From contig JASSKH010000035.1 of NCBI GenBank assembly GCA_031763025.1, positions 3,136,320 through 3,200,319 on the forward strand: a DNA stretch of 64,000 bases, given 5' to 3'. The DNA comes from Macrocystis pyrifera. Taxonomy: Eukaryota > Sar > Phaeophyceae > Laminariales > Laminariaceae. The notes under the pieces are model-generated. The model was given only the letters and a program-made list of their open reading frames with translations. It had not been told where the DNA came from and made no database searches. A program made the translations under genes and the position numbers. Positions within the stretch are counted from its first letter, which is position 1. Every line of letters starts with the position of its first letter. Below are positions 35,801-60,000 of this stretch, one piece after another.

Positions 35801-38800
35801 ACCCCACTCACCATTTGGCGTCTCAGCCGTCTTTGCCTTCCCGCACAACTGGCGAGCCACGTGAAAACACCATCCCCAAGCTGCTGCGACCCGAACGACG
35901 ACACCACAGACACCTTCCTCGTCAAAATGAGCCGCGGGCAGGTCGCACGAGGCTGGGCAAGCCGCCTTGGCGGGTGCCGCCTCCATATGTTGGCTGGCGG
36001 CGGTAAAGGCCTGGCGTAACCTACGCTCATCCTAGAAGACGCCACCGGCGTTACCGTGTTGCCAAGCGCTGGAGTCTGCGAAGAAGGGCCTTCCGCTCCG
36101 TCGTTCTCCGCAGAGTTCTTTATCCTTATGCCGAGCCAGTCAAAGAGAGGTGCTTGAGCGGGCTCTATGGCCGCGATGCGCAACGCGCGGCGGGAGTACT
36201 CGGCGGCGGCGTGCACATGGGCGATATTATCGCCGCTGCTTTCGTTGCCATAGAAGGCCTCCACGAGAGATAGGCGTGCGGCATGCTTGCTTCGTAATAC
36301 ACGACGAACGAGCCGCTGCATCAATCAGTATGAAAGAAAGAAGGAAGCGGGGACGAAAATTCGAGGTCAAAACCCTGTCGATTTATGTGGTTATTGAGTT
36401 GCGGATGACGGTTTACCCCCGCCGTGACGGTGTCTTTTGCTATTAACAGCACCCCTTTCACACAATCATAAACGTGCACAAGTCGCCCTGCGCGCTCATG
36501 TAGTTGCCTCGCAAAAGCGACCTCCTCCTTTACCAAGACACCAAGACGACTGACTACGAGTTATTCCGACGACATGTGTGGTACACGTGTGCGGCTGCAA
36601 ACATCAGATGCATCATGGGCAGCCTGCCCTGTTTCGGAAAAGGCGCTATTGGCGGCTGATTGCATCCACGCTCGCGTCGAACGAGATCACTCCCTCCAAT
36701 CATAGACCCCCATCATCTCTTCAACATCTCCGTCGACAGGCTCACATTGTTTTCACCGAGCCAAGCCCTGGCAGACGTCGCTTCCCACGCCCGTTCGGCC
36801 TCACTCTGATTCACGGGTCGGGTGCATGCTATACCAGAGTAGCCCAAGGGTCCGGGCACCCTGTTACTGCATCGGTGCGCCTGTGGACACGGCGGCAAGA
36901 AACAGACAAAAACAAAAACGAACGAGACAAATGATTTTCTCTTGCAACGCTCTTTCACTTCACACTTTTCTCACCCGAGCATTCATCACTCATCGGGCTG
37001 CTCCCCAGCCACTTCACGAAACCCCATCAGCCAATGGGGCCGGTCGCTTTTCATGCAACCTATCAGCCAACGAGTGGCGCGCGACCTCCTCCTCCTCCGC
37101 CTCCTCCTCCCGATATGTCAGCACTCACCTGGTGCAACGCCCAATGGGCAGTAAAGTGCGGGTTTTCCTCGCCGTATAACTCCGCTCGAGCTAGCCTGGT
37201 ATCGCCCTGATATGTGTTGGCAAACATCTGTGCCGTGCGCAACTCCTCCGCCGATCCTGGCTCTAGGAGGGGTGTATCTTGGACTGGTTCCGGGACCGGC
37301 CCTTGTACTGGTGCCGAGACCCGGTTATGGAGTGGCTCCGGGACCGGCTCTTGGACCAAGTGTGGCTCATGAACCACCAGCGAAGCGGCTTCGCCCCCCC
37401 CCACATCTTCGATGATCTAGGAACCAATCCGAAGACAACCGAAAGGTAGACAGATTTGAGTTTAGTTTGGTGGAGGGTGATGGAAAGCGTTGTTGAGCAT
37501 TTTCAGCTCCTTTACCGTCGACTTCGACCTTCTACTGCGCGTGGTGAGACCGAACGAACGGGCGTGCGTGTTGTGGTGGCAAATGCTCTCAAATACGGGT
37601 TGCTGTGTGTCATTTGACTGAGGGGTCAATCGGCGCCCCGCCCTGAGCTAATCGTACATCGTCGCTTGGAAAAATAACAGGGCCGGCCCTGGGTTAGCTC
37701 GAGTAATCTCTGGTGTCGGCAAAGAAGCAATATTTGGAATTATTGGAAACTGTTTAATCTCTGCAGATGCCCCTTGGTTTGCTTGGACAATAAGTGCCAT
37801 CACACCTATCAGCGTCATCATCGGTGCCATAGAATACGCCCGCATCTGACAGCCCGCGGAAGAGAATGGAATCAATGAATTACGCGCGTTTCCACCAAAA
37901 CAGCCGACGGTAGTGCAACGTTTATCACACTGTAGGAAAATGATCCTTTCGCAAGAGAGGCAAAAAGAGGAGGACAGAGAGAGAGAGATGGGGGCAAGAA
38001 CTATCTATCGTAGTTAAGCAGCCAGCCTGAGCGTTATCTGGTTAAAGAAGGGAAGAAGATCACCTGCCCACAATCTTCGTCGACCGCAGCAACCTCTGCG
38101 GCTCTGACTTCTGCCTCTCTCAAACCAAGGAAGTCTTGCCGAAGGATAATCACGGCCGCTCGGGCTGGGTCATCGGCGTGATCGGCTCGGAACATGTCAC
38201 ACATCTGGGTCGTGCAACCATCGCCGATGGTGCGGTTGGTGCGGTTGGTGCGGAAGGGGGGGTGAGGGAGAGGGGAGGGTGTTGCACCATTTCCGGCGTT
38301 AGCCCCGGGAGGAACAAGGACCACAGTCTGTCACAACTTGAAATACAATCACGGCACAGCACAGGGACTTACACATCTATACAGGTAATTCCGCCTGATC
38401 TACCAACGGATGGGACGAGGCGGAGTCATTGTGTCCCCCTCCCGTGGAAAAAACGTAGCGAGAGCCAAAAAGTTGCAGGTGTCTCTATTAGCAGCAGGAA
38501 CACTTCTCCATCTCGGGAGAGATGCGCGGTCGATGACTAATTGACTAAGGCAAGCAACAAATGAGTACACCCCCCCCCGCGCTCCCCCGTCACTCACGCG
38601 ACTATTGCGTACACGGGTATACAGGTAAATGAGCTTGCCTGGGCAGTCCTCTCGCGAACCAGCGCATCCCAGCAAAACTCCTTCCCGCATACGCACGTGA
38701 TCGTATTGCAACCTGCAGTATCAGAGTGTGATAATATAGTACGCTGGTTGGTTAGATAGCGCGCTTACGAATGGCTTCGAAGCCCCGCGGAAAGTATTAT

Positions 38801-41800
38801 CATCCGTATATACGAGAACATTTGTTTTGTTTCGCCCCAATTTGTTCAATATTACTAAACCAAAGGAGGTTGCTAGTTTAGGCGGCTGCCCAAAATAGAT
38901 CATGCCTTTTATGGAATGCCGTACTTATCGGCTAGGTGAAACCAGAGATCCTGCGTAGGAGGTACAAAAGATGTGAAGCTGGATCTCCACCCAGTCCGAC
39001 CGAAAAAGTCCAAAAATCGTTTTTAACGCCTTCCACCAGCGAACACAGTTGATGACAGTCAGGCTTGTCTTAATACCAAATGCTCACCAGCGTGAATTCC
39101 TAGCGAGGCTGAGGCATGCCCTATCTTTACTCGTAGCGATGAATTCTTCCAGTAAATAGCTGCTAACTAGAGTGTGACCCACAGGGGGCCGGAACAAAAA
39201 ACCTATCGGTATGACCCAATGTTTACCTTGCTCCGCCTCCAAGCCCTCTTCGACTACACGCTAACGCACAGTTTCAAACCTGCCGACGGCACGCTCTCAA
39301 GGGTGGCTAACGAAGTCATCCACCCCTAGACATGGTTCAGCGCGTCCTATTCGAAAGACATTTTCGCGAACCCTTGCGCTGTACTGCGAAACTAGCTATT
39401 AATTGCAGCAGACGCAAATGATGTATAATAAACACACCGGATAGATTACTAACCCCCACTGCATGACCTAGATATCCGAGGCCGGACATATTCCTCATCC
39501 GTATGATCTAGCTCATCTTTCACGGCGGGAGCGGCATGATCTGCATGATCTTGCACATGTTTCCTGAGTAAGAAACGAACTTCAGTGTACATACAGATCC
39601 CGCACAACATATCATAACGGCAGATACATGATATAACTTATCTAGATGATCTGTAGATGATCTGTCTCATGTGTGAGATACGACAACCAACAAGGCGGCT
39701 AGCGAATCGAGGCAGCGTTATGCGAGCGAGAGCATCCGCAACCACCAGGTACGATCACAGAAATCGCCTTCTTAAGGTATAAACCCTGCGAGGCTTTCGC
39801 TTTGGCGGGTCGCGCTAAAAACCGCAAAACTAAAAACGAAAAAACACAACGGCTTGACGATTGGCGGAGTCAGCTGTGACCACAGTGGTTGGTACTCGCG
39901 GAAACTCTTCCGCGCCTTTGCTGCCTAATCCTTTTAGTACCACAGTCCCGTTTTGGGGATAAACTACTGACAGTTTAAGAGGTATAACCAAAACGAGACT
40001 GCATCACTAAAATAGTCTAGCCCTCTAGAACTGCAAAACTTACCCTACTCCAATTTCACGCGTTTTGTACTCGTGGCGGGGGTTCAATGATAAAGGTGCT
40101 CAGCGCCGTCTCACCGTCGCCCTTCACGACGTATACTCTGCAGCCGGGGCACTGGTAGACGTCTTCGTGCCCACGTTGCGTCTCGTATTGCTCGCAGGTC
40201 ATCGAGGGATGACCGTCCTTGACGCGACATCTGAAAGTTGCGAAAACAAGGCTGGGTTTTGGGGTTGGAGGCCCTCAATGCGACAGGTGCTACGAGATCG
40301 TTCGGTCAAGCCCTGAGAGGCTCTGCGTAAGGGAGAGGGGCCAACGGATGCCCTCAACAGCTATGATACCCTCAGTTAGCACCCTAGATGCCATCCTCAG
40401 GGTGTTTGTTTGGACTATCCGCTTCCCACCACGAACAACGCCCAAATCTTTCTACTATACCCAAACACACCAAGGCGACTGTCTTGAAATGTGTACCAGG
40501 TATGCCTGTAGGTAACCCTAAGCCTGCATCCTAGGAGCAAGCAAGCAAGCGGGCATGGTGCGTGCATTCGTTTCCCCAGCGCAAGGTGGCACTCGACCAA
40601 TCGGGGCCGCGTAAAGATAAATCAAACCGTACTTTGGTCAGGTCGACCAAGAGCAAATGTATCGAAAAAAAAACCGCATGTGAGCGCCTCGTATCGTGCG
40701 TGGACGCAGGACGTGACATAACCACGATATGCCGATGGTGCGATCCAGAGCGGAGGCATTCCTCACCGGAAGCAATGCAAGTAGTTGCAGCACACGGTGT
40801 GCACCATGGGGTGGAAGCGAAGAAAGCGAATGTGGAGGCTGGCCCTTCGCTCGTTGTCTGGTATCCCGCCATGGCATGGCATTCGGGGAGAAACGCATGG
40901 AGGGAAAGCGGACGACGGTGGATGAGGTCAGATCAGCCAATGCTCAAGTCACTTGCATATTAAGCAACACCTACTGCAAGCATGTGACACTCTTGCTGCA
41001 TGATCACTCTACTGGTATCGAGAGGTATACAAGGAAGGGTTGTAAAGGAACAGGTCTCGCTATTGCTAGGAACTCTACCGATAGCAACAAGATTTTTGTA
41101 CCTGTCGTCAACTTGTTTGCGTTGGTGGTAGTGGGCAGCATCTCTTTGTTTTTGGTAGTGGTGGATGGTGACCTTCTTTTATCGCGGTCGGTCGGGTGTT
41201 ACAGCGATTTCGGAAGCTGTCCCAATTTTTCAGATGCGGTCAAAATTAGAAACTCGCACAATAAATATTGCATTTCGAGAGGGGCGAAGGGATGAAATCA
41301 CACCTGATATATCAACAGTCGAGAGACACGATACATAAACCAGTAAGAGGGGTGAAGAAATAGAGCACAAACCGGGCGCCTGAAGTGTTGCTATCTGCCA
41401 ATTGCAGTGACGGCATACATGGTGAAAGCCAAAAGTGCGTGTCTAACCCAAACGAAAAAAAAACACTTTCGTTTACGTAGCCAGCCCCGACGACCACCAC
41501 TCACCCTCCACGCAGCGCAGTACGTCCACCATGCGCGAGTGCCGGTCATTTGCTAGAGTCTCCCCGAAGGCCAGCGAGAGAATCGCCTCTACCTCATCGT
41601 AAAGCTTGACCACATCCACGTCCTCTCCGAAGATGTAACGCTCGAATGCCAAGCGGAACGACGCAATTCGAGCGTTACTGGAACCGTCGCCCTTTGCGTC
41701 GTTCGGGTCTTCGACCTCTTCGTCGGCTGCCTCGCAGTTGCCATCGAGGTTCGCGGCGATGTCGGCCATCAAATGTTCGAGCGCCAAGCTTTAGAGCACG

Positions 41801-43775
41801 TGTTTTGCGGTATTATCCAGGGCGGTGAGGGGAGGGGGGCGAGGGGTTAGGTTGCTGCTTGTGCGTGCGTTCTAACTGTAATGCTCCTTCTTTGGAGGTA
41901 CGACGGCAGTGACATGGCGGCAACTCAGTCGCGAGCACCGCGGCGAACGAAAAGCCAAGAACGCTTGGGCATCTTGTCCCTCCTACAGCAAAGCACCAAG
42001 CCGCCGTTCGTCGGAGTCACTTTCGAACCACCTCCTATGCCGCAAGCGACACGAGGATTGCTGCTGTTGCAAAACTTTTGGAGGTTTGCTGTGTGCCCAT
42101 TCACGACGAGACCAGATGTAACAGAGTTGACGGAGCAAAGTCGGATGGAAACTAACCTGTACGAGTGGTCGGCTGGCGGGACGACCATGGCGCTCCCGCG
42201 GAGGTGGCAGCTATCGCACTGTAGTGGCCCATTGGTTGACGAAGCAAACACCGGTGGACACGGTCGGAGTGGCGACGGGAAACGGGTGAAGCAGTCGCGA
42301 TCGGTTCTCGGGGATAAATGTATCATGTAGTCCCCTAGGGCGCGGCTCTCGGCCAAAACATGCAGAGCCTTGGCGCGCTGTGCTTTCTATTGCATGGCTT
42401 CTCCATGACGAGAGGCAGGCCCATGAACGAGATGACACACAATTGTCCCGGCACTAGTGACTAGATATTTGATGTTCGCCTGGTTGTCTTACCTGGAGCG
42501 AGAGCAGGGTTGCCGCCCGCTGTTTGAACTTTTCGAAGACGGTAGGGTCTACTAGTGGTCCCCATGCCCACTGGCACACCACGCGGGGGCAGCACATGCA
42601 CCGCATGCGTGGGCAGGCACCATCGAAGCCCGCCATGACGATACCCTGCGTGTGTAATCAGGCCCAGCCGAGTTTCAAAGCAGAAGCACAATGGCGGGGC
42701 ACATCAGGGTCAAGTACGATTTTGTCTGCTGTGTTCCAATTCTATTTATACCTGGTACATACTATTGGTTCATGCCTGGTATGTGACACGAGGTGTTTCT
42801 GCCCCAAAGTTGACTCCAAACTTGCGATCGACTTTCTGTTCAACAAGCTTCTTCTCGAACACTACCAGTTACAACTTTTGCTCTACATCGAAGCTATCTT
42901 GAGTAACTTAGCGTAGAGACTCGTAGGTGCCATAAAGTTGCGTATTCACAAGAAGAGCGTATTTCGCCAGGCAGAAAGCAGGCATTCAAATTACAAATTA
43001 CCCTCCCGAAAGCCCAAGGCTGACGTATCGGTCCTCGTGTATGAAACTAACCATTGGGCGAGTCTACTGTACATAGGTCGGTGGCGCTGAGTCGCAATCG
43101 AGCAGTGGCGGCAGAACATAGAGTGTCAGAGTCACGACAGTTGGTTAGAGGGCACAACTACGTCGTACAGTAACATAGGATAATAGCTCTTGGACTACAC
43201 TACGTACTCAGCTTCGTTTTATATCCTGGTAACGAATAACCGCTCAATGGTGAATAACCGCTCGATTGTAGGGGACTTACCTCGAAATATGTCTTGAGAC
43301 AGGAGACACAGGCACTAACGGTGCAGCCCGTCTCTCCGCCACCATCGTCAGCCGCTGCTGCCGACGCCGCGGCAACAGCAGTGGATTCTCGATGAAGCCA
43401 AGCGGCCCCAACCATCTCCTCAGAGTCCGCGAGGCACACCACGCAAGTGCCGGGAGTGGTCGTCGGCACGCTGCCTCTTGCGGCAGGTTCTTGCGCGGCG
43501 CTAGCGGTGTTGCTGGCACTAGTGGCACTAGCAGGCGTTTCGCAAGGTGGCAGCGCTAGGGCGGGTGTCGTCGGTATTGTGTCGACAACTCCACGGCAAA
43601 CCCGACGTTCAGTCGGCACCACCTGCGATCGGCCGTTAAGTCGGGGGGCGGGGGGAGTTACACCATTTCTCAGCTTCGCATGATGAGTCTTCATGTCTTG
43701 ATATTCCTCGGCCGGACTGAGAGCGTCGTTCCATACTTCCCAGGTACGTGGCATATAACCGTCCAATCTGTTCAT
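32813..43775 (-). CDS. RBR-type E3 ubiquitin ligase-like protein, left-arm copy
   Basis: A long split gene whose exons join by phase: 43775-43281, 42645-42493, 42377-42157, 41788-41505, 40857-40767, 40230-40115, 38712-38598 (3' end uncertain), 38204-38064, 37845-37806, 37406-37129, 36880-36746, 36527-36417, 36315-35812, 35256-34427 and 32968-32813, roughly 1,200 residues. The N-terminal part has a RING1-like segment (CVVCLADSEE ... SACVSCLKTYFE, then CPRMRCMCCP). Exons 5-7 give an IBR end (VCCNYLHCFRCRVK, HPSMTCEQYE) and RING2 (YQCPGCRVYVVKGDGCNTIT, CVCGKEFCWDAL) with the catalytic-type Cys in GDGC. RBR ligases receive ubiquitin on that Cys before transfer to substrate. The C-terminal part is repeat-like, with LYGEEN/FYGNES motifs. 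Start ATG is the first in frame after an upstream stop; upstream exons are possible. In one of two possible frames of exon 36315-35812 there is a TAG near 36,030. Confidence 0.75.
33661..33697. repeat. Single end of hairpin family (GTACCACTCTG)
   Basis: AACGGTCCTTATATTTCCGC followed by TCAGAGTGGTACAG matches one arm of the hairpin at 28,328-28,411. The opposite arm is missing here. The mirror copy is at 61,262-61,301. Confidence 0.65.
33764..34025. repeat. AGATCAT-rich element, family G, copy in RBR intron
   Basis: The segment is rich in AGATCAT/ATGATCT and GCATGATCTAGCTCATG. It starts and ends with inverted AGATGATCTA-type ends. Related segments occur at 35,240-35,480 and 39,460-39,675, and all three are mirrored in the right arm (about 60,950-61,215, 59,350-59,580 and 55,145-55,385). 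It is a likely short non-autonomous transposon family residing in introns of the RBR gene. Confidence 0.7.
35240..35480. repeat. AGATCAT-rich element, family G, second copy
   Basis: Shares GTGCAGGATCTGTATTGTAC-type and GAAACATGAGCTAGAT-type blocks with 33,764-34,025 and 39,460-39,675. It abuts the acceptor side of the large RBR exon (35,256), so part of the exon border may derive from the element. Confidence 0.6.
39460..39675. repeat. AGATCAT-rich element, family G, third copy
   Basis: Contains GTATGATCTAGCTCATCTTT, GCATGATCTGCATGATCTTG and TAGATGATCTGTAGATGATC in the same order as the related copies. Lies in the RBR intron between exons ending 40115 and starting 38712. Confidence 0.7.
39931..40014. 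mobile_element. Short hairpin element, family C, in RBR intron
   Basis: CTTTTAGTACCACAGTCCCG + TTTTGGGGATAAACTAC on the left and a degraded inverse (ACCAAAACGAGACTGCATCA + CTAAAA) on the right match the hairpin at 15,524-15,608. The mirror copy in the right arm is about 54,812-54,895. Confidence 0.65.
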
Positions 43776-44867
43776 GCTCGGATCTCTAAATGTGCAGGGG
43801 GTACCCGTACTTGCTGCTGCTGGCGATGCGCTCTGTATGCCCGTCGTCGGAGTTCGGGTGTCAGAGCTTTTTTCGAGGGCGAAGATTTTGTGGCAAACGG
43901 CACAAAATCGGTGACCAAGGCGATAAAACACATCGATCGCTCCAGCAGAGTGATAGATGGTCACGTCACGTTAAACCTCTGTCCCAACTTCTTCCGAATG
44001 TCATCGAGCGTATGATACTGGTACCTGGTTCCACGTATGTGTATGGTATGTTTCTGACTTGGAATGGTCCGTATCAATCGCAACAGCGGGTGGGCATGAA
44101 TGCCACGATTAAATACATGCCGGTACTACAGTTAGTGGTATTCAGGTGTGTCGATTTATTGAAGCATGTACTGTAATCATCTCTTATGATATGATGCAGT
44201 AGTCCTCAAGTGGCACAGATCCCTAGTTGGAGTCGCAGTCTGACCTTTATCGTTGGGACACTACGCCCCCGAGACGCAATCGTATGGCTATTTGTTGCTT
44301 GACCATTTACGACGCGGTGAGCATCATTAACAGCCAACATTCGATGAGAGTCGATTACTTTTACGAAAAAGCGACTGAAGCACTGACATGTTGACACCCA
44401 TGGCGTGATTTAAGCCTAGGCGCGTTCTGTAGCCCAGCAGGGTGGGCTTAAGAAGCCGAGATCTGCATTTTTTTTTCAACTGCTGTACGGACATATAAAG
44501 AGCAGCAAGGAAAGCGATGTAGTATGACAGAACACGGGCTGAAACATGGGAAGTACAATAATAGAAAAATGAACCGAAAACTCTGGGATTGACGCATGCG
44601 TGACGTGTGTAAGCTATTGGCAGCACCGTTCACGTTGATGCGCACACGCAGCTAAAGTAAGTAGGCATCGGTGTCGTCAATGTTTGTTGTGCCTACTGTA
44701 CCATACCTGGTACATATTTATGTGTGTACGTGCTGATGTAGTACCTGGTACGTACCAAGTACGAAATACACTGGCGCCGGTTGAAGTCCCCGTCAGCAGG
44801 CAGGCGCATACATCATGACCGCTCATGCGGCATATCATATATTCCGGGCGACCATACATACCTGGTA

Positions 44868-44969
44868 GTAAATAGGACCTACGGTACAGACAAAAACCTA
44901 CCATGTATATATTCATCTATTTTCACCAACAATATTGGGTCCTACTTACTATGGTCCCCCGTAATAGTA
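44868..44969. mobile_element. Miniature inverted-repeat element, family A copy 3, truncated
   Basis: The interior (TTTTCACCAACAATATTGGG) and the right end (ACTATGGTCCCCCGTAATAG) match the element at 6943-7052. The left terminal repeat with its GGGGG block is absent and replaced by ATACCTGGTAG, so homology breaks at a TACCTGGTA motif. Confidence 0.8.
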
Positions 44970-45101
44970 GTTTAGTGTACGCATGGGTATGTGCTCCATG
45001 GATCTGCAGCTAGCGTTGCAAATGCAGCGATTCGCCTACCGTTGTACCAGGTATGACACGGATACGTACTTGGTTTTCGCTCGGAAACCAGCGAGTGTAC
45101 A

Positions 45102-45173
45102 CTAGACATTTTTCCCCCTTTGCTCAATAAGGTCTGCGCACGTACTACTGTAACTCTTCCTCACCTCCACTGC

Positions 45174-45212
<39 letters not shown>

Positions 45213-45737
45213 AACCGCCAGATCTGCCGGAGGAGAAGAAGTTTCGTTCGCCGAAACAGCTTCAAATTCCTCAACTTCTTCTTCTTCTACCCCTTCGGAG
45301 GCAATAACCGTCTCCAGCGCCACTCCTTCACAGAACGACGCTCGAACCGCTACTTCATGTGGTATCATCGCCGAGTCCGACAAGACAGCAGTTTGAGAGT
45401 CATCGCATTGAGGCGTGATGCCGGAGATATGCGGTGCCATCGGCGAGTGAACTACCGGCCACACAATGTCCACGACTGGGGCATCCAGGAGACCAGCGTT
45501 GTCGACCAGTGCTGTTGTTGTTGTCACCGTTCTGGTCGCTGACGTGTTGTTGTTGTTGCTGGAGCTGCACGTAGTATTGATAGCAGCAGCAGCCACCAGG
45601 ATGTTCGCCGATTGGAGGATTTGATGAGATGATCCGCCAGCGGGCGAGGTATTAATAATATTAATAGTAGTGTTATCAATAGTAGCAGTACGTCGACGGC
45701 GGGCGGTAGGCTCGCTGTAAGAGCGTCGAAGGAGCAT
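45102..45737 (-). CDS. Alanine- and glutamate-rich ORF, copy a, unknown
   Basis: A single open frame of 211 codons from ATG at 45737. It begins MLLRRSYSEPTARRRR, has a Thr/Asn/Ser-rich middle, a conserved block (PQCDDSQTAVLSDSAMI), an acidic stretch (EGVEEEEVEEFE) and a pure alanine run encoded by a GCA repeat (CTG/CAG microsatellite, about 45,174-45,213), then a basic tail. No signal peptide, membrane segment or known domain is visible. A head-to-head relative lies at 46,611-47,198. Retention of an open frame in both copies despite indels argues for coding, but low complexity weakens that. It may be an exon of a larger gene or an element-derived ORF. Confidence 0.45.
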
Positions 45738-46329: not shown

Positions 46330-47650
46330 TACCTGGATTCTTGGCCAGGACACGACAACTGGCGCCCCTGGCTCCTGGCCCGTGAGAACCGTTCCCCATT
46401 CTGTATGCTGACAGTCCCGCCGGATTGCTCGCTCGCATGCTCCCGCCCCCCACACTGCACAACGATACGTATCCTCGAACCAGCTAACACGGCTACATAA
46501 ACAGCCGCCGGCGCAAAATCTAACCAAAACTATCGCAACTACAGCAGTACGGCACACTCCTAAAACCTGGTGGGAGCTGGGTCCTCTTGCGACTTGTAAC
46601 CTCTAGCAGTACGATGGTTCTTCGACGTTGTTACAACGAGCCTACCGCCCCAGTCGTGGATATTGTGGGGCCGGTAGTTCACTCGCCGATGGAACCGCAT
46701 AGCTCCGGTATCACGCCTCAGTGCGCTGACTCTCAAACTGCTGTCTTGTCGGACTCGGCGATGATACAACAAGAAGTAGCGGTTCGGGCGTCGTTCTGTG
46801 AAGGAGTGGCGCAGGAGACGATTGCTGCCTCCGAAGGGGTAGAAGAAGAAGAAGTTGAGGAATTCGAACCTGTTTCGGCGAACGAAACTTCTCCTCCGGC
46901 AGATCTGGTGGTTGCAGCAGCCACAGCAGCAGCCACAGCAGCAGCAGCAGCAGCAACAGTAGCAGCAGTGGAGGTGAGGAAGAGTTGCAGTATGTGTGCA
47001 GACATTATTGAGCAAAAGGGGGGGGGGAAATGTCTGTACACTCGCTGGTTTCCGAGCGAAAGCCGAAAACGTATCCGTATAATACAACAGTTACTAGCAG
47101 TAGTAATAGGTGAATCGCTGCATGTATGTGCAACGCCACAAGTAGTAGCAGACACAGGCAGTGCACATATCCATACACTGACGAACTACGCCGCATGAGC
47201 GGTCATGATGTATGCGCCAGCCTGCTGACGTGGACTTCAACCGGCGCCAGTGAATTTCGCACCTGGTACGTACTACAGCAGCGTGTACACGCGTAAATAT
47301 ATACCAGGTATGGTACAGCAGTAGGCACAACATCTTTTTTTTTTTTTTTTTTTTAATCCTCCGGCGGATTGGTAAAAATAAAGCTTAAGCTCACCACACT
47401 TCGTACATGGACAACAATACCCGATGATGCTTTTACCCTTACCTAATGCTGTGTACTTAACCTATGTGTGTGCGCAGTTTTAATTCGGTGATTGTGCGTG
47501 TTGAGCATCAACTTGAACGGTGCTGCGAATAGCTTACACACGTCACGCATGTGTCATTGCCAACGTTTTCGTTTTTTTTTTTCCTTTGTATTTCTATGTT
47601 TCAGCCCGTACTTTCGCTGTCCTTCCTGCTATTTTTTTTCATAAAATTTG
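46330..47650. repeat. Right arm of nested inverted repeat in spacer
   Basis: Inverse partner of 44,463-46,060. It has lost about 0.2 kb relative to its partner in the ORF region and carries independent poly-T runs (47,334-47,354 and 47,571-47,582). The right end fades near 47,650, shortly before the motif array. Confidence 0.85.
46611..47198 (+). CDS. Alanine- and glutamate-rich ORF, copy b, unknown
   Basis: An open frame of about 195 codons from ATG at 46611 (MVLRRCYNEPTAPVV...). Relative to copy a it lacks a block of about 75 codons after EPTA, in frame, and its alanine tract is interrupted by Thr and Val. The conserved block PQCADSQTAVLSDSAMI and the EEEEVEEFE stretch are kept. The C-terminus differs because a G-run near 47,020 and read-through extend the frame past the equivalent of the copy a stop. 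The two copies diverge from a common centre near 46.15 kb. Function unknown. Confidence 0.4.
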   Translation, partial: TMVLRRCYNEPTAPVVDIVGPVVHSPMEPHSSGITPQCADSQTAVLSDSAMIQQEVAVRASFCEGVAQETIAASEGVEEEEVEEFEPVSANETSPPADLVVAAATAAATAAAAAATVAAVEVRKSCSMCADIIEQKGGGKCLYTRWFPSESRKRIRIIQQLLAVVIGESLHVCATPQVVADTGSAHIHTLTNYAA

Positions 47651-47949
47651 TTTGTACAGTACTGCTGTTGTAGTTGAAAAACATCTGTAGATCCCGGTTT
47701 CTTCAACGCCCCTCGCCCCCTCTATGTTATATACAGTACCTGGTATATATATGGGTTGGGTTGGCGTCGATTGGCGACGACGCTGTAAAACACGCATCTC
47801 AGTGCGTGACCTAGACAGCCAGGGTACCGTTTTTTTTTTTTTTTTTTGGCGGTTACCACGGCTGGCGGTCGAGTTACTACTGTCGATCATGTTCACACCT
47901 CGGATAACGCCACACTCAAATAACGCTAATCTACGATATGGGGCCTAAC

Positions 47950-49870
47950 AGAGGAACGCGGTAACATACTAACATAGCGTTAGCACTGGAGAAGCGATCA
48001 CGGTAACGCAATAACACCGTGTTAACTGGAAACCCACGAACGTGCACGCGCCTCAACGTTATGTTGTTGCTCGGTCTCGTCCAGCTCTGGTACAGCAACA
48101 TTATGTTGTGCAGTGATCAGTCCTTGAACTATTAATGACACCGTAACGCAGTGTTAGGCTTTGACCAAACACGCACATTATCACTCTAACATGCCCAGAT
48201 CGATATCCGCATGTTTACTAACACGATAACATAATGTTTTTATCGACGCAGCGTTAGACGCAACACGATAACATTATGCTACCCTTAGGAGCAGTGTTAT
48301 ACGTAACACCCTAACATAACGTTACCATGTTGGCCAGCACTACTAACACATAATAAACATTGTGTTAGAGATTACATACTAACGTAACATAACAGATACG
48401 CAATAACGCAATGGCCGGCACTCCTGACACTACGTTGTCTGGACCCCCCATCTGATTGCCTTAGGGTCGGATAACGTAACACTTGACGTACGATATATAC
48501 GTTACAGTCTTAGCCGGCCCATACGTAACATTATGTTAGGATGTTAGCCTAAATGCGGAAGTCTCTGTAACATTATGTTACGGTGTTAGTAAAGATCTGA
48601 TTATTACATTCCGTTACCCTGTTACCATAAAAACCAATCCGGGTCTAACTTTATGTTACTGAGTTACCGTTGGGGCCGAGGGCGTTCTAACGTAATGTTG
48701 CTACGTTACCCTTTGGATTTTCCCGAGATCTAACATGTGTTAACTGTGTTAGTGGTAAAGCGGGCGTGTGGGAGTAACATAGCGTAGCCGTGTTATCCTA
48801 TTTCGCCGACATCCCAGTAGGGGATACCACAAAAGTATCCCCGGGGGGAGGATAGCATGGCATCCCCGTAAAAAACGCCTCCATATTTTAACCCCCAAAC
48901 AGGGGATATTTAGGAGGGGTCCCCGCAAAAAAACGCCTCATTCGTTTTGTGGAAACCCCGCCAGTACGTTATCCATCTATAACACATTACGTTATCCATC
49001 TATAACACATTACGTTATCCATCTGCAACACATTACGTTATCCATCTATAACGTAGTCTGTACACTCGCACGTACCAGTTAACACGGCAGTAACATATTG
49101 TTGATGTTAGATTGGGGGTGTACGTTATCTGTTAACTTGTGTCACCAAATACATTGCATACGAGTTGACAACATTAACATAGTGCTATCAATAGTGTTTA
49201 TCGATCACATACGTTATCCGTTTGACGTACGTTGTGTTGTTATGGTATCAGGACTTCCGTAATACCCTCACATAACGTCGCTCGGAACGGAGTGCTGCTG
49301 CGGCTGATGCGGTAACACAATGTTAACGTTGTATTGACCATAGTATACGTCATCCCTCTAACGTGTGTTACGATATCCCCTAGGAGTTTCACTAACACAC
49401 CAACATAGTGTTATGCACGCGTTTATTTGGCCGTGTACGTTATCCGTCGAAAGGGTGTTACGGTAGCAAGAAGAATCCCGCTGATACACTAACATAGCGT
49501 TACTCGCTACGAGCTGATGCTGCTAACACGGTAACATAATGTTAACGTTTAATTGACCATGTACGTTATCCCTTCAACGTGTGTCACGATAGCCACCAGG
49601 AATTCCGATAACACGCTAACATTGTGTTACTCGCTATGGGCTGCATACCCTAACACCGTAGCACATATACTGCGGTCAGTACGAGATCAAGATAACACTC
49701 TGACATAATGTTACGCGGTCGCCCGCCAAAATCATAACACATTAACACTATGTTATCACAAAATCCAGAAAGAAGTTAAGGTAGTAACGTAATTTTACGG
49801 GTTTTTTCGCTGACGCCTAACATTAACATAAAACGTTAAGTGTTACGTTATCCGAGGTGTGTAAATGTTT
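47950..49870. repeat. Array of near-palindromic TAACATAATGTTA motifs
   Basis: Some dozens of short motifs of the type (C)TAACATAATGTTA(G), GTAACATTATGTTA and CGTTATCC / GGATAACG occur every 20-60 bp in both orientations across 1.9 kb. Many are perfect or near-perfect palindromes. From about 49,080 to 49,640 a degenerate higher-order unit is visible: AACACGGTAACATAATGTTA, then AACGTTTAATTGACC, GTACGTTATCC, AACGTGTGTTACGATA, then ACACGCTAACATAGTGTTA. No open frame crosses the array. Nothing comparable occurs elsewhere in the window. Confidence 0.85.
48963..49054. repeat. Tandem array of 23-bp unit, four copies
   Basis: The unit ACGTTATCCATCTATAACAC + ATT is repeated four times in a row, almost perfectly (one unit has CTGCAAC in place of CTATAAC). 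It sits inside the motif array and looks like a recent local amplification of one of its motifs. Confidence 0.95.
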
Positions 49871-51042
49871 GTACGGGGAGAACATTTACTCCGCACAAGG
49901 GGGATGATCGTATCACGTAGTGTGTATATGGTGAGGCACCCACGAGGCAGCAGCTACATAATAAACCCATTGCTGTCTCTGGAAGTGGCCACACCAGAAA
50001 TTAAACCAATTCATTGAAGAAAATCCGCCTCTAAATCGGTTCTTCGTAGGATGCAGCTCAATCTTCATGCGACTCGCCCAACACCTCACGACGCTTCGCG
50101 CTTGGTGAAAGCAATGTCAGCCTGGTCGGTGAAAACCCGACGTGCTCCCTCCCGGCGTTTTAGGGATGCGGGGGCCTATGGTCATACGACTACGGCCATG
50201 CATGATAAGGGTCGATCTCAACGAGGACTGTTTTTCATTTTTTTCTCAATATTTTCGGTATTTTTCGATTTTTTCCTCAAGGAAAATACCGAAATTTCGG
50301 GAAAATACTGAAAACAAAACTGAAAAACACTCTTCGTTAAGATCGACCCTAATGAGTGCACCCCCCCCCCACGCCCCGTGCTGGGCTACAGAACGCGCCT
50401 AAGCTTAAATCACGCCATGGGTGTCAACATGTCAGTGCTTCAGTCGCTGTTTCGTAAAAGTAATCGACTCTCATGGAATGTTGGCTGTTAATGATGCTCA
50501 CCGCGTCGTAAATGGTCAAGCAACAAATAGCCATACGATTGCGTCTCGGGGGCGTAGTGTCCCAACGATAAAGGCCAGACTGCGACTCCAACTAGGGATC
50601 TGTGCCACTTGAGGACTACTGCATCATATCATAAGAGATGATTACAGTACATGCTTCAATAAATCGACACACCTGAATACCACTAACTGTAGTACCGGCA
50701 TGTATTTAATCGTGGCATTCATACCCACCCGCTGTTGCGATTGATACGGACCATTCCAAGTCAGAAACATACCATACACATACGTGGAACCAGGTACCAG
50801 TATCATACGCTCGATGACATTCGGAAGAAGTTGGGACAGAGGTTTAACGTGACGTGACCATCTATCACTCTGCTGGAGCGATCGATGTGTTTTATCGCCT
50901 TGGTCACCGATTTTGTGCCGTTTGCCACAAAATCTTCGCCCTCGAAAAAAGCTCAGACACCCGAACTCCGACGACGGGCATACAGAGCGCATCGCCAGCA
51001 GCAGCAAGTACGGGTACCCCCTGCACATTTAGAGATCCGAGC
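49871..51042. other. Spacer edge and 5' region of right-arm RBR copy
   Basis: Contains the right flank of the motif array, a hairpin element (50,208-50,350), the inner edge of the right arm near 50,381, and sequence upstream of the first in-frame ATG of the RBR copy. A frame with no stop runs from 50,854 into the first recognised exon and includes CAVCHKIFALEKSS, so coding may begin earlier or another exon may lie here. Confidence 0.45.
50208..50350. mobile_element. Hairpin element at inner edge of right arm
   Basis: AGGGTCGATCTCAACGAGGA + CTGTTTTTCA on the left is inverted on the right as TGAAAAACACTCTTCGTTAA + GATCGACCCT, about 140 bp apart. The interior is also self-complementary in part (AAAATACCGAAA). 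It ends 30 bp before the inner edge of the right arm. Confidence 0.85.
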
Positions 51043-54000
51043 ATGAACAGATTGGACGGTTATATGCCACGTACCTGGGAAGTATGGAACGACGCTCTCA
51101 GTCCGGCCGAGGAATATCAAGACACGAAGACTCATCATGCGAAGCTGAGAAATGGTGTCAACCCCCCCCCCCCCCCCGACTTAACGGCCGATCGCAGGTG
51201 GTGCCGACTGAACGTCGGGTTTGCCGTGGAGTTGTCGACACAATACCGACGACACCCGCCCTAGCGCTGCCACCTTGCGAAACGCCTGCTAGTGCCACTA
51301 GTGCCAGCAACACCGCTAGCGCCGCGCAAGAACCTGCCGCAAGAGGCAGCGTGCCGACGACCACTCCCGGCACTTGCGTGGTGTGCCTCGCGGACTCTGA
51401 GGAGATGGTTGGGGCCGCTTGGCTTCATCGAGAATCCACTGCTGTTGCCGCGGCGTCGGCAGCAGCGGCTGACGATGGCGGCGGAGAGACGGGCTGCACG
51501 GTTAGTGCCTGTGTCTCCTGTCTCAAGACATATTTCGAGGTAAGTCCCCTACAATCGAGCGTTTATTCACCATTGAGCGGTTATTCGTTACCAGGATATA
51601 AAACGAAGCTGAGTACGTAGTGTAGTCCAAGAGCTATTATCCTATGTTACTGTACGACGTAGTTGTGCCCTCTAACCAACTGTCGTGACTCTGACACTCT
51701 ATGTTCTGCCGCCTCTGCTCGATTGCGACTCAGCGCCACCGACCTATGTACAGTAGACTCGCCCGATGGTTAGTTTCATACACGAGGACCGATACGTCAG
51801 CCTTGGGCTTTCGGGAGGGTAATTTGTAATTTGAATGCCTGCTTTCTGCCTGGCGAAATACGCTCTTCTTGTGAATACGCAACTTTATCGCACCTACGAG
51901 TCTCTACGCTAAGTTACTCAAGATAGCTTCGATGTAGAGCAAAAGTTGTAACTGGTAGTGTTCGAGAAGAAGCTTGTTGAACAGAAAGTCGATCGCAAGT
52001 TTGGAGTCAACTTTGGGGCAGAAACACCTCGTGTCACATACCAGGTATGAACTAATAGTATGTACCAGGTATAAATAGAATTGGAACACAGCAGACAAAA
52101 TCGTACTTGACCCTGATGTGTCCCGCCATTGTGCTTCTGCTTTGAAACTCGGCTGGGCCTGATTACACACGCAGGGTATCGTCATGGCGGGCTTCGATGG
52201 TGCCTGCCCACGCATGCGGTGCATATGCTGCCCCCGCGTGGTGTGCCAGTGGGCATGGGGACCACTAGTGGACCCTACAGTCTTCGAAAAGTTCAAACAG
52301 CGGGCGGCAACCCTACTCTCGCTCCAGGTAAGACAACCAGGCGAACATCAAATATCTAGTCACTAGTGCCGGGACAATTGTGTGTCATCTCGTTCATGGG
52401 CTTCCCTCTCGTCATGGAGAAGCCATGCAATAGAAAGCACAGCGCGCCAAGGCTCTGCATGTTTTGGCCGAGAGCCGCGCCCTAGGGGACTACATGTTAC
52501 ATTTATCCCCGAGAATCGATCGCGACTGCTTCACCCGTTTCCCGTCGCCACTCCAACCGTGTCCACCGATGTTTGCTTCGTCAACCAATGGGCCACTACA
52601 GTGCGGTAGCTGCCACCTCCGCGGGAGCGTCATGGTCGTCCCGCCAGCCGACCACTCGTACAGGTTAGTTTCCATCCGACTTTGCTCCGTCAACTCTGTT
52701 ACATCTGGTCTCGTCGTGAATGGGCACACAGCAAACCTCCAAAAGTTTTGCAACAGCAGCAATCCTCGTGTCGCTTGCGGCATAGGAGGTGATTCGAAAG
52801 TGACTCCGACGAACGGCGGCTTGGTGCTTTGCTGTAGGAGGGACAAGATGCCCAAGCGTTCTTGGCTTTTCGTTCGCCGCGGTGCTCGCGGCTGAGTTGC
52901 CGCCATGTCACTGCCGTCGTACCTCCAAAGAAGGAGCATTACAGTTAGAACGCACGCACAAGCAGCAACCTAACCCCTCGCCCCCCTCCCCTCACCGCCC
53001 TGGATAATACCGCAAAACACGTGCTCTAAAGCTTGGCGCTCGAACATTTGATGGCCGACATCGCCGCGAACCTCGATGGCAACTGCGAGGCAGCCGACGA
53101 AGAGGTCGAAGACCCGAACGACGCAAAGGGCGACGGTTCCAGTAACGCTCGAATTGCGTCGTTCCGCTTGGCATTCGAGCGTTACATCTTCGGAGAGGAC
53201 GTGGATGTGGTCAAGCTTTACGATGAGGTAGAGGCGATTCTCTCGCTGGCCTTCGGGGAGACTCTAGCAAATGACCGGCACTCGCGCATGGTGGACGTAC
53301 TGCGCTGCGTGGAGGGTGAGTGGTGGTCGTCGGGGCTGGCTACGTAAACGAAAGTGTTTTTTTTTTTTTCGTTTGGGTTAGACACGCACTTTTGGCTTTC
53401 ACCATGTATGCTGTCACTGCAATTGGCAGATAGCAACACTTCAGGCGCCCGGTTTGTGCTCTATTTCTTCACCCCTCTTCCTGGTTTATGTATCGTCTCT
53501 CTCGACTGTTGATATCAGGTGTGATTTCATCCCTTCGCCCCTCTCGAAATGCAATATTTATTGTGCGAGTTTCTAATTTTGACCGCGTCTGAAAAATTGG
53601 GACAGCTTTCGAAATCGCTGTAACACCCGACCGACCGCGATAAAAGAAGGTCACCATCCACCACTACCAAAAACAAAGAGATGCTGCCCACTACCACCAA
53701 CGCAAACAAGTTGACGACAGGTACAAAAATCTTGTTGCTATCGGTAGAGTTCCTAGCAATAGCGAGACCTGTTCCTTTACAACCCTTCCTTGTATACCTC
53801 TCGATACCAGTAGAGTGATCATGCAGCAAGAGTGTCACATGCTTGCAGTAGGTGTTGCTTAATATGCAAGTGACTTGAGCATTGGCTGATCTGACCTCAT
53901 CCACCGTCGTCCGCTTTCCCTCCATGCGTTTCTCCCCGAATGCCATGCCATGGCGGGATACCAGACAACGAGCGAAGGGCCAGCCTCCACATTCGCTTTC

Positions 54001-57000
54001 TTCGCTTCCACCCCATGGTGCACACCGTGTGCTGCAACTACTTGCATTGCTTCCGGTGAGGAATGCCTCCGCTCTGGATCGCACCATCGGCATATCGTGG
54101 TTATGTCACGTCCTGCGTCCACGCACGATACGAGGCGCTCACATGCGGTTTTTTTCGATATATTTGCTCTTGGTCGACCTGACCAAAGTACGGTTTGATT
54201 TATCTTTACGCGGCCCCGATTGGTCGAGTGCCACTTTGCGCTGAGGAAACGAATGCACGCACCATGCCCGCTTGCTTGCTTGCTCCTAGGATGCAGGCTT
54301 AGGGTTACCTACAGGCATCCCTGGTACCCATTTCAAGACTGCCGCCTTGGTGTGTTTGGGTATAGTAGAAAGATTTGGGCGTTGTTCGTGGTGGGAAGCG
54401 GATAGTCCAAACAAACACCCTGAGGATGGCATCTAGGGTGCTAACTGAGGGTATCATAGCTGTTGAGGGCATCCGTTGGCCCCTCTCCCTTACGCAGAGC
54501 CTCTCAGGGCTTGACCGAACGATCTCGTAGCACCTGTCGCATTGAGGGCCTCCAACCCCAAAACCCAGCCTTGTTTTCGCAACTTTCAGATGTCGCGTCA
54601 AGGGCGGTCATCCCTCGATGACCTGCGAGCAATACGAGACACGACGCAGGCACGAAGACGTCTACCAGTGCCCTGGCTGCAGGGTGTTCGTCGTGAAGGG
54701 CGACGGTGAGACGGCGCTGAGCACCTTTATCATTGAACCCCCGCCACGAGTACAAAACGCGTGAAATTGGAGTAGGGTGAGTTCTGCAGTTCTAGAGGGC
54801 TAGACTCTTCTAGTGATGCAGTGTCGTTTTGGTTATACCTCTTAATCTGTCAGTAGTTTATCCCCAAAACGGGACTGTGGTACTAAAAGGATTAGGCAGC
54901 AAAGGCGCGGAAGAGTTTCCGCGAGTACCAACCACTGTGGTTACAGCTGACTCCGCCAATCGTCAGGCCGTTGTGTTTTTTTTTTTTTCGTTTTTTGTTT
55001 TGCGGTTTTTAGCGCGACCCGCCAAAGCGAAAGCCTCGCAGGGTTTATACCTCAAGAAGGCGATTTCTGTGATCGTATCTGGTGGTTGCGGATGCTCTCG
55101 CTCGCATAACGCTGCCTCGACTCGCTAGCCGCCTCGTTGGTTGACGTATCTCACACATGAGACAGATCATCTACAGATCATCTTTAGATCATCTAGATAA
55201 GTTATATCATGTATCTGCCGTTATGATATGTTGTACGGGATCTGTATGTACACTGAAGTTCGTTTCTTACTCAGGAAACATGTGCAAGATCATGCAGATC
55301 ATGCCGCTCCGCCGTGAAAGATGAGCTAGATCATACGGATGAGGAATATGTCCGGCCTCAGATATCTAGGTCATGCAGTGGGGGTTAGTAATCTATCCGG
55401 TGTGTTTATTATACATCATTTGCGTCTGCTGCAATTAATAGCTAGTTTCGCAGTATAGCGCAAGGGTTCGCGAAAAGTGTCTTACGAATAGAACGCGCTG
55501 AACCATGTCTAGGAGTGGATGACTTCGTTAGCCACCCTTGAGAGCGTGCCGTCGGCAGGTTTGAAACTGTGCGTTAGCATGTAGTCGAAGAGGGCTTGGA
55601 GGCGGAGCAAGGCGAACATTGGGTCATACCGATAGGTTTTTTGTTCCGGCCCCCTGTGGGTCACACTCTAGTTAGCAGCTATTTACTAGAAGAATTCATC
55701 GCTACGAGTAAAGATAGGGCATGCCTCAGCCTAGCTAGGAATTCACGCTGGTGGGCATTTTATATTAAGACAAGCCTGACTGTCATCAACTGTGTTCGCT
55801 GGTGGAAGGCGTTAAAAACGATTTTTGGACTTTTTCGGTCGGACTGGGTGGAGATTCAGCTTCACATCTTTTGTACCTCCTACGTAGGATCTCTGGTTTC
55901 ACCTAGCCGATAAGTACGGCATTCCATAAAAGGCATGATCTATTTTGGGCAGCCGTCTAGACTAGCAACCACCTTTGTTTTAGTAATATTGAACAAATTG
56001 GGGCGAAACAAAACAAATGTTCTCGTATATACGGATGATAATACTTTCCGCGGGGCTTCGAAGCCATTCGTAAGCGCGCTATCTACGTACTATATTATCA
56101 CACTCTGATGCTGCAGGTTGCAATACGATCACGTGCGTATGCGGGAAGAAGTTTTTCTGGGATGCGCTGGTTCGCGAGAGGATTGCCCAGGCAAGCTCAT
56201 TTACCTGCATACCAGTGTACGCAATAGTCGCGTGAGTGACGGGGGAGCGGGGGGGGGGGGGGTGTACTCATTTGACGCTTGCCTTAGTCAATTAGTCATC
56301 GACTGCGCATCTCTCCCGAGATGGAGAAGTGTTCCTGCTGCTAATAGAGACACCTGCAACTTTTTGGCTCTCGCTACGTTTTTTCCACGGGAGGGGAACA
56401 CAATGACTCCGCCCCGTCCCATCCGTTGGTAGATCAGGCGGAATTACCTGTATAGATGTGTAAGTCCCTGTGTTGTGCCGTGATTGCATTTTCAAGTTGT
56501 GACGGACATTGGTCGTTGTTCCTCCCGGGGCTAACGCCGGAAATGGTGCAACACCCTCCCCTCTCCCTCACCCCCCCCCCTTCCGCACCAACCGCACCAA
56601 CCGCACCATCGGCGATGGTTGCACGACCCAGATGTTTGACATGTTCCGAGCCGATCACGCCGATGACCCAGCCCGAGCGGCCGTGATTATCCTTCGGCAA
56701 GACTTCCTTGGTTTGAGAGAGGCAGAAGCCAGAGCCGCAGAGGTTGCTGCGGTCGACGAAGATTGTGGGCAGGTGATCTTCTTCCCTCCTTTAACCAGAT
56801 AACGCTCAGGCTGGCTGCTTATGCTTGCCCCCATCTCTCTCTCTGTCTTCCTCTTTTTGCCCCTCTTACGAAAGGATCATTTTCCTGTAGTGTGATAAAC
56901 GTTGCACTACCGTCGGCTGTTTTGGTGGAAACGCCGTAATTCATTGATTCCATTCTCTTCCGCGGGCTGTCAGATGCGGGCGTATTCTATGGCACCGATG

Positions 57001-60000
57001 ATGACGCTGATAGGTGTGATGGCACTTATTGTCCAAGCAAACTAAGGGGCATCTGCAGAGAATAAACAGCTCCCAATAATTCCGAATATTGCTTCTTTGC
57101 CGACACCAGAGATTGCTCGAGCTAACCCAGGGCCGGCCCTGTTATTTTTCCAAGCGACGATGTACGATTAGCTCAGGGCGGGGCGCCGATTGACCCCTCA
57201 GTCAAATGACACACAGCAACCCGTATTTGAGAGCATTTGCCACCACAACTTATAACGCACGCCCGTTCGTTCGGTCTCACCACGCGCAGTAGAAGGTCGA
57301 GGTCGACGGTAAAGGAGCGGAAAATGCTCAACAACGCTTTCCATCACCCTCCACCAAACTAAACTCAAAGCTGTCTACCTTTCGGTTGTCTTCGGATTGG
57401 TTCCTAGATCATCGAAGATGTGGGGGGGGGCGAAGCCGCTTCGCTGGTGGTTCATGAGCCACACTTGGTCCAAGAGCCGGTCCCGGAGCCACTCCATAAC
57501 CGGGTCTCGGCACCAGTACAAGGGCCGGTCCCGGAACCAGTCCAAGATACACCCCTCCTAGAGCCAGGATCGGCGGAGGAGTTGCGCGCGGCACGGATGT
57601 TTGCCAACACATACCAGGTGGATACCAGGCTAGCTCGAGCGGAGTTGTACGGCGAGGAAAACCCGCACTTTACTGTCCATTGGGCGTTGCACCAGGTGAG
57701 TGCTGACATATCGGGAGGAGGAGGCGGAGGAGGAGGAGGTCGCGCGCCACTCGTTGGCTGATAGGTTGCATGAAAAGCGACCGACCCCATTGGCTGATGG
57801 GGTTTCGTGAAGTGGCTGGGGAGCAGTCCGATGAGTGATGAATGCTCGGGTTAAACAAATGTGAAGTGAAGTGAAAGAGGGTTGCAAGAGAAAATCATTC
57901 GTCTCGTTCGTTTTTGTTTTTGTCTGTTTCTCGCCGCCGTGTCCACAGGCGCACCGATGCAGCAACAGGGTGCGCAGACCCTTGGGTTACTCTGGTATAG
58001 CACGCACCCGACCCGTGAATCAGAGTGAGGCCGAACGGGCGTGGGAAGCGACGTCTGCCAGGGCTTGGCTCGGTGAAAACAATGTGAGCCTGTCGACGGA
58101 GATGTTGAAGAGATGATGGGGGTCTATTAATAGGAGGGAGTGCTCTCGTTCGACACGTGCGTGGATGCAATCAATCGCCAATAGCGCCTTTTCGAAATCA
58201 TGGTGGCAGGCCGCCCATGATGCATCTGATGTTTGCAGCCGCACACGCGTACCACACATGTCGTCGGAATAACTCGTACTCAGTCGTCTTGGTGTCTTGG
58301 TAAAGGAGGAGGCCGCTTTTCGGGGCAACTACATGAACGCGCAGGGCGACTTGTGCACGTTTTTGATTGTGTGAAAGGGGTGCTGTTAATAGCAAAAGAC
58401 ACCGTCACGGCGGGGGTAAACCGTCATCCGCAACTCAATAACTACATAAATCGACAAGGTTTTGACCTCGAATTTTCGTCCCCGTTTCCTTCTTTCTTCC
58501 ATGCTGATTGATGCAGTCGCTCGTTCGTGGTGTATTACGAAGCAAGACCGCCGCACGCCTATCTCTCGTGGAGGCCTTCTATGGCAACGAAAGCAGCGGC
58601 GATAATATCGCCCATGTGCACGCCGCCGCCGAGCACTCCCGCCACGAGTTGAGCGTAGCGGCCATAGAGCCCGCTCAAGCACCTCTCTTTGACTGGCCCG
58701 GCATGAGGATAAAGGACTCCGATCTCACCTATTATTCGCAGACTCTAGCGCTCGACTATACGGTAACACCGGTGGCGCCCTCTGGGAGAAGAACATGGTA
58801 CGCCAGGCCTTTACCGCCGCCAGCCACCATATGGAGGCGGTACCCGCCAAGGCGATTTGTCCCGCCTCGTGCGACCTGCCCGAGGCTCGTTTTGACGAGG
58901 AACGTGTCTGTGGTGTCGTCGTTCGGGTCGCAGCAGCTTGGGCATGATGTTTTCACGTGGCTCGCCAGTTGTGCGGGAAGGCAAAGACGGCTGAGACGCC
59001 AATTGGTGAGTGGGGTTGCTTCTTGTTTTGCATTCTCACCATGAGGTAAAACTACACCCTCCTTACGAGGTCTTGTGAACCGCACCAAATCCTTTGTTTT
59101 TGTTTCGGCCATCCTATATTAATATGTCTACCAGGTAATCGTATACCGTGGTAGATATTATTGAGTGAATCGCTTTGGCGTGACCAGGGTTTCTCGCAGA
59201 GGCGAGGCATGCATGCATGCATGCACCCCTCAGGAGGAGAGCTCCTCCCTCGCAGCGTGACGAACTGGACACAGCTTGCGGCGCATCACTCTCCCGACGA
59301 CCAGCCCCCGATGTGCTTGGAATCACGCCTCTTTCGTACACACATCGGACAGATGTTATAGATAATACAGATATTTCCCACGCAATTATCTACCAGGTAA
59401 ATGTTTCAGGGCAGGTATATTCCTGATCTGCATAATCTAGCTCATGTTTCCGCGGATGGAAGTCACAATAGTCTGCATGACCTAGTACGTGTTTCCTGAG
59501 TTGGATTTGTACAATACAGATCCTGCACAACGTCTCACAGTGGCCGGGTAGGATCCATATGATTTAGATCGTTCTATATCTGTCCGTTGTGTGCGACGCC
59601 CCTCGTTCGGCAAACAGGCACTAGAGGAAGAGCGACTGTCTCAGGCCTGGATCGCACTGTGGGGTAGGCGAAGTTTGCGTGGCGTCGCGAAGGTGTTAGC
59701 CAGCACCGGCCGAGACCCCCTCGAAGAGCAGCGCGCAGTGGAAACGGCGGCACGGCGCGTCACGTTTTTGGAGAGCTACCCGGAGCACATGGCTGCCGAA
59801 CAGGGACCCATGCTCAAGGCGTTCGTGCGTCTACACTGGGCGGTGATTGATCGCGTCCGTGCGGACGTGATCGTGCAGCGAGCAGCAGCGTGGGGGGCGA
59901 TGCACTCTCCTCCTCGTTTTCCACTGAACACTGCCGAGCAAGGCCGTTGTACACGCCAAGGCGAGGAGCCCAGCAATGACGGCAACGACCACAACGGCAG

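Follow-up and report, generated by a model that had tools for sequence, protein, structure and literature searches.

A palindromic motif array in the kelp Macrocystis pyrifera belongs to a dispersed family of non-autonomous DNA transposons with putative protein-binding units

The locus and its features

The analyzed stretch of DNA from Macrocystis pyrifera, here called the window, comprises 64 kb and contains an imperfect palindrome (31000-44442 and 50376-64000) whose arms are at least 13 kb long and reach the window end. These arms are mostly 99-100% identical over the 3.8 kb closest to the spacer, and ~87-98% identical in the outer pieces. A second imperfect palindrome of ~3 kb (44534-45482 and 46647-47609) lies inside the spacer and adjoins the element described below, and a self-complementary, hairpin-like 150-bp stretch (50205-50353, ~79% identity) adjoins the right arm.

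In the spacer between the two large arms, an initial annotation of this DNA had noted an array of near-palindromic motifs at 47950..49870. This location is correct, as the element that contains the array lies wholly within the spacer, but the limits need to be corrected: the element spans 47894-49861 and is thus slightly wider on the left. No open reading frame of at least 150 aa is present between these positions in the list of open reading frames, Pfam searches with 20 open reading frames (17 of the window and three of the further copies L029 and L030) gave no match, and Rfam and tRNA scans of the window found nothing. The following features can be assigned:

47886..47893, no strand: putative decayed 8-bp target duplication, left copy (ATCATGTT), 5/8 match to the right copy, weak alone
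47894..49861, plus strand: non-autonomous DNA transposon copy, 1,968 bp, delimited by end alignment of copies, as homology to the dispersed copies stops there
47894..47916, plus strand: left terminal inverted repeat, CACACCTCGGATAACG..., from self-alignment of both ends and the outer 20-mer count
47970..48367, plus strand: left block, motifs at 47970, 48012, 48054, 48096, 48144, 48227, 48269, 48312 and 48355, third half-site mostly upstream (units with ≤2 mismatches oriented)
48526..48700, minus strand: second block, motifs at 48526, 48568, 48604, 48646 and 48688, third half-site downstream, i.e. in opposite orientation, in the four units scored
48965..49052, plus strand: central 23-bp tandem, 3.8 copies, with TACGTTATCC, the core of the terminal repeat
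49091..49797, plus strand: right block, motifs at 49091, 49175, 49313, 49401, 49490, 49532, 49617, 49701, 49743 and 49785
49839..49861, minus strand: right terminal inverted repeat, ...AGTGTTACGTTATCCGAGGTGTG, from self-alignment of both ends and the outer 20-mer count
49862..49869, no strand: putative decayed 8-bp target duplication, right copy (TAAATGTT), 5/8 match to the left copy

The array (47.97-49.83 kb) is built on the 13-mer TAACATAATGTTA, of which 11, 20 and 28 copies are found at ≤1, ≤2 and ≤3 mismatches, respectively, as compared to means of 0, 0.17 and 1.7 (maxima 0, 2 and 4) in 60 dinucleotide-preserving shuffles. The half-sites TAAC/GTTA occur 102 times versus 33 times in shuffles (maximum 55, n=200 shuffles), the spaced form TAACN5GTTA 12 times versus 0.12 expected from shuffles, and ACGTTATCC, counted on either strand, 9 times versus 0.035. 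A motif frequency equal to that of shuffled sequence with the same dinucleotide content would have spoken against the array, but the shuffles are far exceeded, and the claim of a palindromic motif array beyond chance holds. Across the window, all 20 matches to TAACATAATGTTA with ≤2 mismatches and 28 of the 37 with ≤3 mismatches are inside the array. The periodicity had been called loose, and while the periodicity itself is real, it is sharper than this word implies: among 23 neighbour gaps, 10 measure exactly 42 bp and 16 are within 1 bp of 42 or 84 bp, and 21 motif pairs are spaced by 42 or 84 bp (±1), whereas 5000 randomisations gave a mean of 2.0 and a maximum of 9. This spacing test used 24 of the 28 motifs, leaving out three inside the 23-bp tandem and the match at 49818.

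Ends, target sites and dispersal of the family

The exact 13-mer TAACATAATGTTA occurs 2,298 times in the genome, as compared to 11 occurrences of a reversed control, and a match to the element was found in all 28 loci that were fetched for it (eight automatically, and 20 chosen among the first 100 places, largely those that had at least two matches). When 47895-49862, i.e. a query shifted by one base to the right of the element limits, was searched, at least 28 other places among the 40 scored of 1,495 candidates covered at least 1,963 of the 1,968 bases at 86-91% identity, and the remainder of the 40 were partial matches to the element. Two of the 28 near-full-length places (copies 5 and 7) represent one duplicated insertion. 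Among the matches scored, the copies are spread over many contigs, their homology ends at the same points in the end alignment, and their flanks are unrelated, though some copies share flanks through segmental duplication. The array is not a local feature but a single member of a dispersed family of non-autonomous DNA transposons, and the idea of one such array per chromosome has to be given up in view of the frequency of the 13-mer and the distribution of the copies.

The element starts with CACACCTCGGATAACG and ends with CGTTATCCGAGGTGTG. Its terminal inverted repeats (TIRs) are about 23 bp long; the two ends can be aligned over 26 bp in the copy of the window, over 23 bp in L022, and over 18 bp in L029, which is an older copy. 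The outer TIR 20-mer is found 588 times genome-wide in exact form and not once as reversed control, and judged by this count, the family probably comprises several hundred copies. In viral contigs, neither the TIR 20-mer nor the unit pattern described below was detected. Among the first 100 TIR places listed, there are 29 inward-facing neighbour pairs, of which 19 are spaced by 1,590-2,075 bp, six by 2,583-5,759 bp, and four by at least 55 kb.

Flanks were compared for 35 copies (20 from the element-search list and 15 earlier ones). An 8-bp target duplication is exact in 14 of them and present at ≥7/8 bases in 19, as compared to 14 of 1,190 mismatched flank pairs that served as control. As copies 5 and 7 as well as L016 and L032 share flanks and thus are duplicated insertions, the independent insertions with such a duplication (≥7/8) amount to 18 of 33. 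The target preference is nAnnnnTn, with A at position 2 in 19 of 19 sites and T at position 7 in 18 of 19. A clear 8-bp duplication is absent in 16 of the 35 copies, including the window copy, and four of these 16 match at 7/7 bases instead; with only 5 of 8 matching bases, the duplication of the window copy is at best a decayed one. TIRs, a fixed-length duplication, dispersal with unrelated flanks and the lack of coding capacity together characterize non-autonomous TIR DNA transposons, and all of these are found here.

The repeat at 49878-50208 of the window also lies near element copies in L022, L027 and L021, at varying distance. On contig C217, left ends of the element are found at 116852, 155813 and 194890, i.e. 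~39 kb apart, and this contig also has several hAT matches, which suggests a large repeated region.

What does the family imply for the other roles that had been envisaged for the array? A replication origin, a centromere-like array, or a recombination site behind the inverted duplication would be in line with the position in the spacer of a palindrome with such long arms. However, there are hundreds of copies in the genome, the target duplications are found at the family's own ends, and the arms start 0.5 kb and 3.5 kb away from the element ends, which makes roles of this kind highly improbable. The suggestion of an origin or centromere-like array thus loses its basis. A link to the formation of the inversion is not needed, as the element is accounted for by its own ends and by the family, whose copies elsewhere share the TIR ends and in 19 of 35 cases have the 8-bp duplication. 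The element copy need not have any causal link to the inverted duplication around it.

Units, grid and blocks

The architecture was determined with 209 motif instances from 11 elements, after six near-duplicate rows had been dropped. The composite unit has 21 bp and consists of TAACACnn followed by TAACATAATGTTA, with TAAC(A/G)(C/T)N(C/G)-TAACATAATGTTA as the fuller form, and it thus contains three half-sites. The third half-site, defined as TAAC at a distance of 8 bp upstream or GTTA at the same distance downstream, with ≤1 mismatch, is present in 158 of the 209 instances (99 upstream, 50 downstream, 9 on both sides) and absent from 51, whereas TAAC with ≤1 mismatch is found at only 7.6% of positions at other upstream offsets. 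Across elements, 80 of 198 neighbour gaps are exactly 42 bp, and 31 are 83-85 bp. According to the third half-site, three blocks can be distinguished: it is mostly upstream in the left block, downstream in the second, and upstream where present in the right block, i.e. in six of ten units, the other four being without it. The TIR core TACGTTATCC recurs not only in the central tandem but also along the right half of the element, and the right block contains a partial 127-bp higher-order duplication (a two-copy repeat).

The likeness over whole periods that is expected of satellite DNA was not observed, and the initial view that the array is no simple satellite is borne out by a 42-bp grid with nearly unrelated spacers. 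In four copies, the mean identity of the 21-bp spacers is 0.260-0.268, as compared to 0.249-0.250 after shuffling (26% versus 25%), which is ~1.6-2.7 SD above the shuffled value. Because of this slight excess and the 127-bp duplication in the right half, part of the 42-bp grid can be ascribed to duplication. One may go further and regard the entire array as a decayed satellite or as functionless tandem duplications inside the element, and the 23-bp tandem, the 127-bp two-copy repeat, the marginally raised spacer identity and the weak conservation of the motif over its surroundings (see below) would agree with this. But the 21-bp units match while the spacers between them are nearly random, the 42-bp grid is exact, and the arrangement is common to copies that reside on many contigs and have the same ends. 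An origin of the array as decayed satellite or as functionless duplications is therefore disfavoured and in our opinion quite unlikely.

Conservation of the motif

A comparison of L022 with 18 loci gave 8.0% differences among copies for the motif core and 8.95% for its surroundings. The core is thus hardly more conserved than its surroundings, as is to be expected when inserted non-autonomous copies are free to decay. In the same comparison, the TAAC/GTTA half-sites outside the 13-mers show 6.6% differences versus 9.4%. Between subfamilies, L005 is the only one whose core value (0.176) is lower than each of the 24 shifted controls (mean 0.276; minimum 0.188). In L012, the core value lies below the control mean (0.119 versus 0.176; control minimum 0.112), for L029, L033 and L021 it is near this mean (0.244 versus 0.270, 0.156 versus 0.170, and 0.124 versus 0.135, respectively), and for L018 both are equal (0.105). 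These sequence comparisons therefore give limited direct support for selection on the motif. The initial proposal of a selected protein-binding site must be judged in two parts: the exact 42-bp phasing with nearly unrelated spacers fits it, whereas the weak conservation of the core does not.

The search for an autonomous partner

The few long copies that were read did not include an autonomous one; they comprise four of six pairs of inward-facing TIRs at 2.2-6 kb (L032, L034, L033 and L023) and part of the 3.2-kb pair (L015), but not the 2.6-kb and 55-kb pairs. L032 (5.8 kb) has intact TIRs and a perfect GAAGTTTG duplication and encloses a LINE-like open reading frame of 1,249 aa (L032:614-4360), which is uninterrupted and, judged by eye, resembles a LINE endonuclease and reverse transcriptase. 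L034 (3.9 kb, perfect AAAAGGTT duplication) holds two 502-bp direct repeats with 99.6% identity, which we read as a nested LTR element. L033 (5.4 kb) turned out to be an older copy with insertions, and L023 (3.0 kb) an element copy plus extra sequence.

Genes of the hAT type are common in the genome, with 150 PF05699 matches scored. A comparison of 115 of these matches with 100 of the element's 119 left ends placed no hAT gene between these TIRs, and the single PF05699 match within 40 kb inward sits beyond the right end of the respective element. The hAT gene of L037 was rejected as partner, since it is positioned outside the TIRs. The KDZ profile PF18758 is silent in this genome, and it is equally silent in all 14 controls.

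Proposed function of the array

Overall, we think it very probable that 47894-49861 is a diverged copy of a high-copy, non-coding family of cut-and-paste transposons, the body of which is composed of putative protein-binding units. As no transposase gene was found between the TIRs in the copies read, we infer the binding to these units. The initial annotation had offered subterminal transposase-binding repeats of a large DNA transposon as one possibility. Transposase-binding repeats of a DNA transposon indeed are the best reading, but instead of being the subterminal part of a large element, the array makes up the body of a non-autonomous element of 2 kb.

Mechanistically, the 21-bp units are putative binding sites, either of a transposase provided in trans or of an accessory protein that binds DNA. 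A dimer would occupy each palindrome, and a further subunit would occupy the third half-site. The 42-bp grid corresponds to four turns of B-DNA and would place successive complexes on the same face, by which the whole short element could be loaded and its ends could be brought together for excision. A protein that binds repeatedly along one face of the DNA would select for such an exact four-turn grid and leave the spacers free.

Alternatively, the transposase of this non-autonomous transposon might need only the TIR, and the arrays might bind a host protein, e.g. a MYB-like factor, for transcriptional or chromatin activity. Sites of plant MYB-like factors contain TAAC. In agreement with such a host protein, the units fill the body and not the ends alone, and the second block is oppositely oriented, unlike in a simple end-recognition scheme. 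On the other hand, the body contains further copies of the TIR core TACGTTATCC, and the GTTA/TAAC half-site is common to TIR and units, so that the array is linked to end recognition. Binding of a host protein is therefore possible, albeit rather doubtful.

It is also conceivable, though unlikely, that the family represents a so far unrecognised lineage, with 8-bp nAnnnnTn targets and CACACC ends, whose mobilising protein forms a filament or a wrapped particle over the entire element. In such a lineage, the whole DNA and not the ends alone would be the recognised substrate, via three-subunit sites on a four-turn grid.

Be that as it may, the element as such is of an ordinary type, namely a non-autonomous DNA transposon; what is unusual and informative is its architecture. 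Subterminal transposase sites usually are few, short and irregular. If transposase binds to the ~20 composite sites that natural copies offer on a 42-bp grid with free spacers, the geometry of the transposase-DNA complex would be legible from the sequence, and if the partner protein is found, the family would be a ready system to test what makes long arrays necessary for some transposons. With regard to kelp genomics, a family is described and an apparent origin or centromere candidate is removed. By topic, no published description of this family was found, but repeat libraries of kelp or Ectocarpus may list it.

Comparison with known systems

Like MITEs, the family is non-coding, has TIRs and target duplications, and reaches a high copy number. 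Unlike MITEs, its members are ~2 kb long and are built of phased units that resemble protein sites. En/Spm (CACTA) elements contain many copies of a subterminal 12-13-bp motif that is bound by the element-encoded TNPA. The many motif copies of similar length and the termini that start with CAC are reminiscent of En/Spm, but the motif is a different one, and the duplication has 8 bp here and 3 bp in EnSpm, as stated in the available part of the source (PMC12730594).

With hAT elements (Hermes, Ac/Ds, Tol2) and their non-autonomous derivatives, the family shares the 8-bp target duplications and short subterminal repeats. The hAT target consensus is nTnnnnAn, and hAT TIRs begin with CAGNG. In contrast to this typical consensus, the targets of the kelp family are nAnnnnTn (A2 in 19/19 and T7 in 18/19 sites), which argues against a typical hAT element, its TIR begins with CACAC, and ~20 phased units fill the whole element. 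A mechanistic precedent is Hermes, in which, according to the available part of the study, the octamer contacts three left-end repeats through its BED domains; two of these repeats form a quasi-palindrome, and exact phasing is held to be crucial (PMC10368747). A phased quasi-palindrome plus a third repeat is what the unit of the kelp family resembles as well. The same part of this study considers it unlikely that extra transposase on inner repeats supports transposition in cells (PMC10368747), and for piggyBat, the accessible text describes an inner site by which activity is restricted (PMC11707139). By analogy, an array that covers the whole body may either help or restrain transposition.

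KDZ transposons (Zisupton, Dileera and Kyakuja) are a further group for comparison; in the brown alga Ectocarpus, their families are prominent according to the part of the source at hand (PMC12477816). In the available text on these elements, 8-bp target duplications are given for Zisupton as well as for the Dileera lineage Zisupton-1_PGr and thus agree with those of the kelp family. Kyakuja is described with CA..TG termini, a further point in common, but with 7-bp duplications and no TIRs, in which it differs from a family that has TIRs and 8-bp duplications (PMC12730594). Phased palindrome arrays, as found here, are not mentioned for KDZ elements in the portions of these two sources that were available (PMC12730594, PMC12477816). 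The 8-bp duplications of the kelp family fit both hAT and Zisupton.
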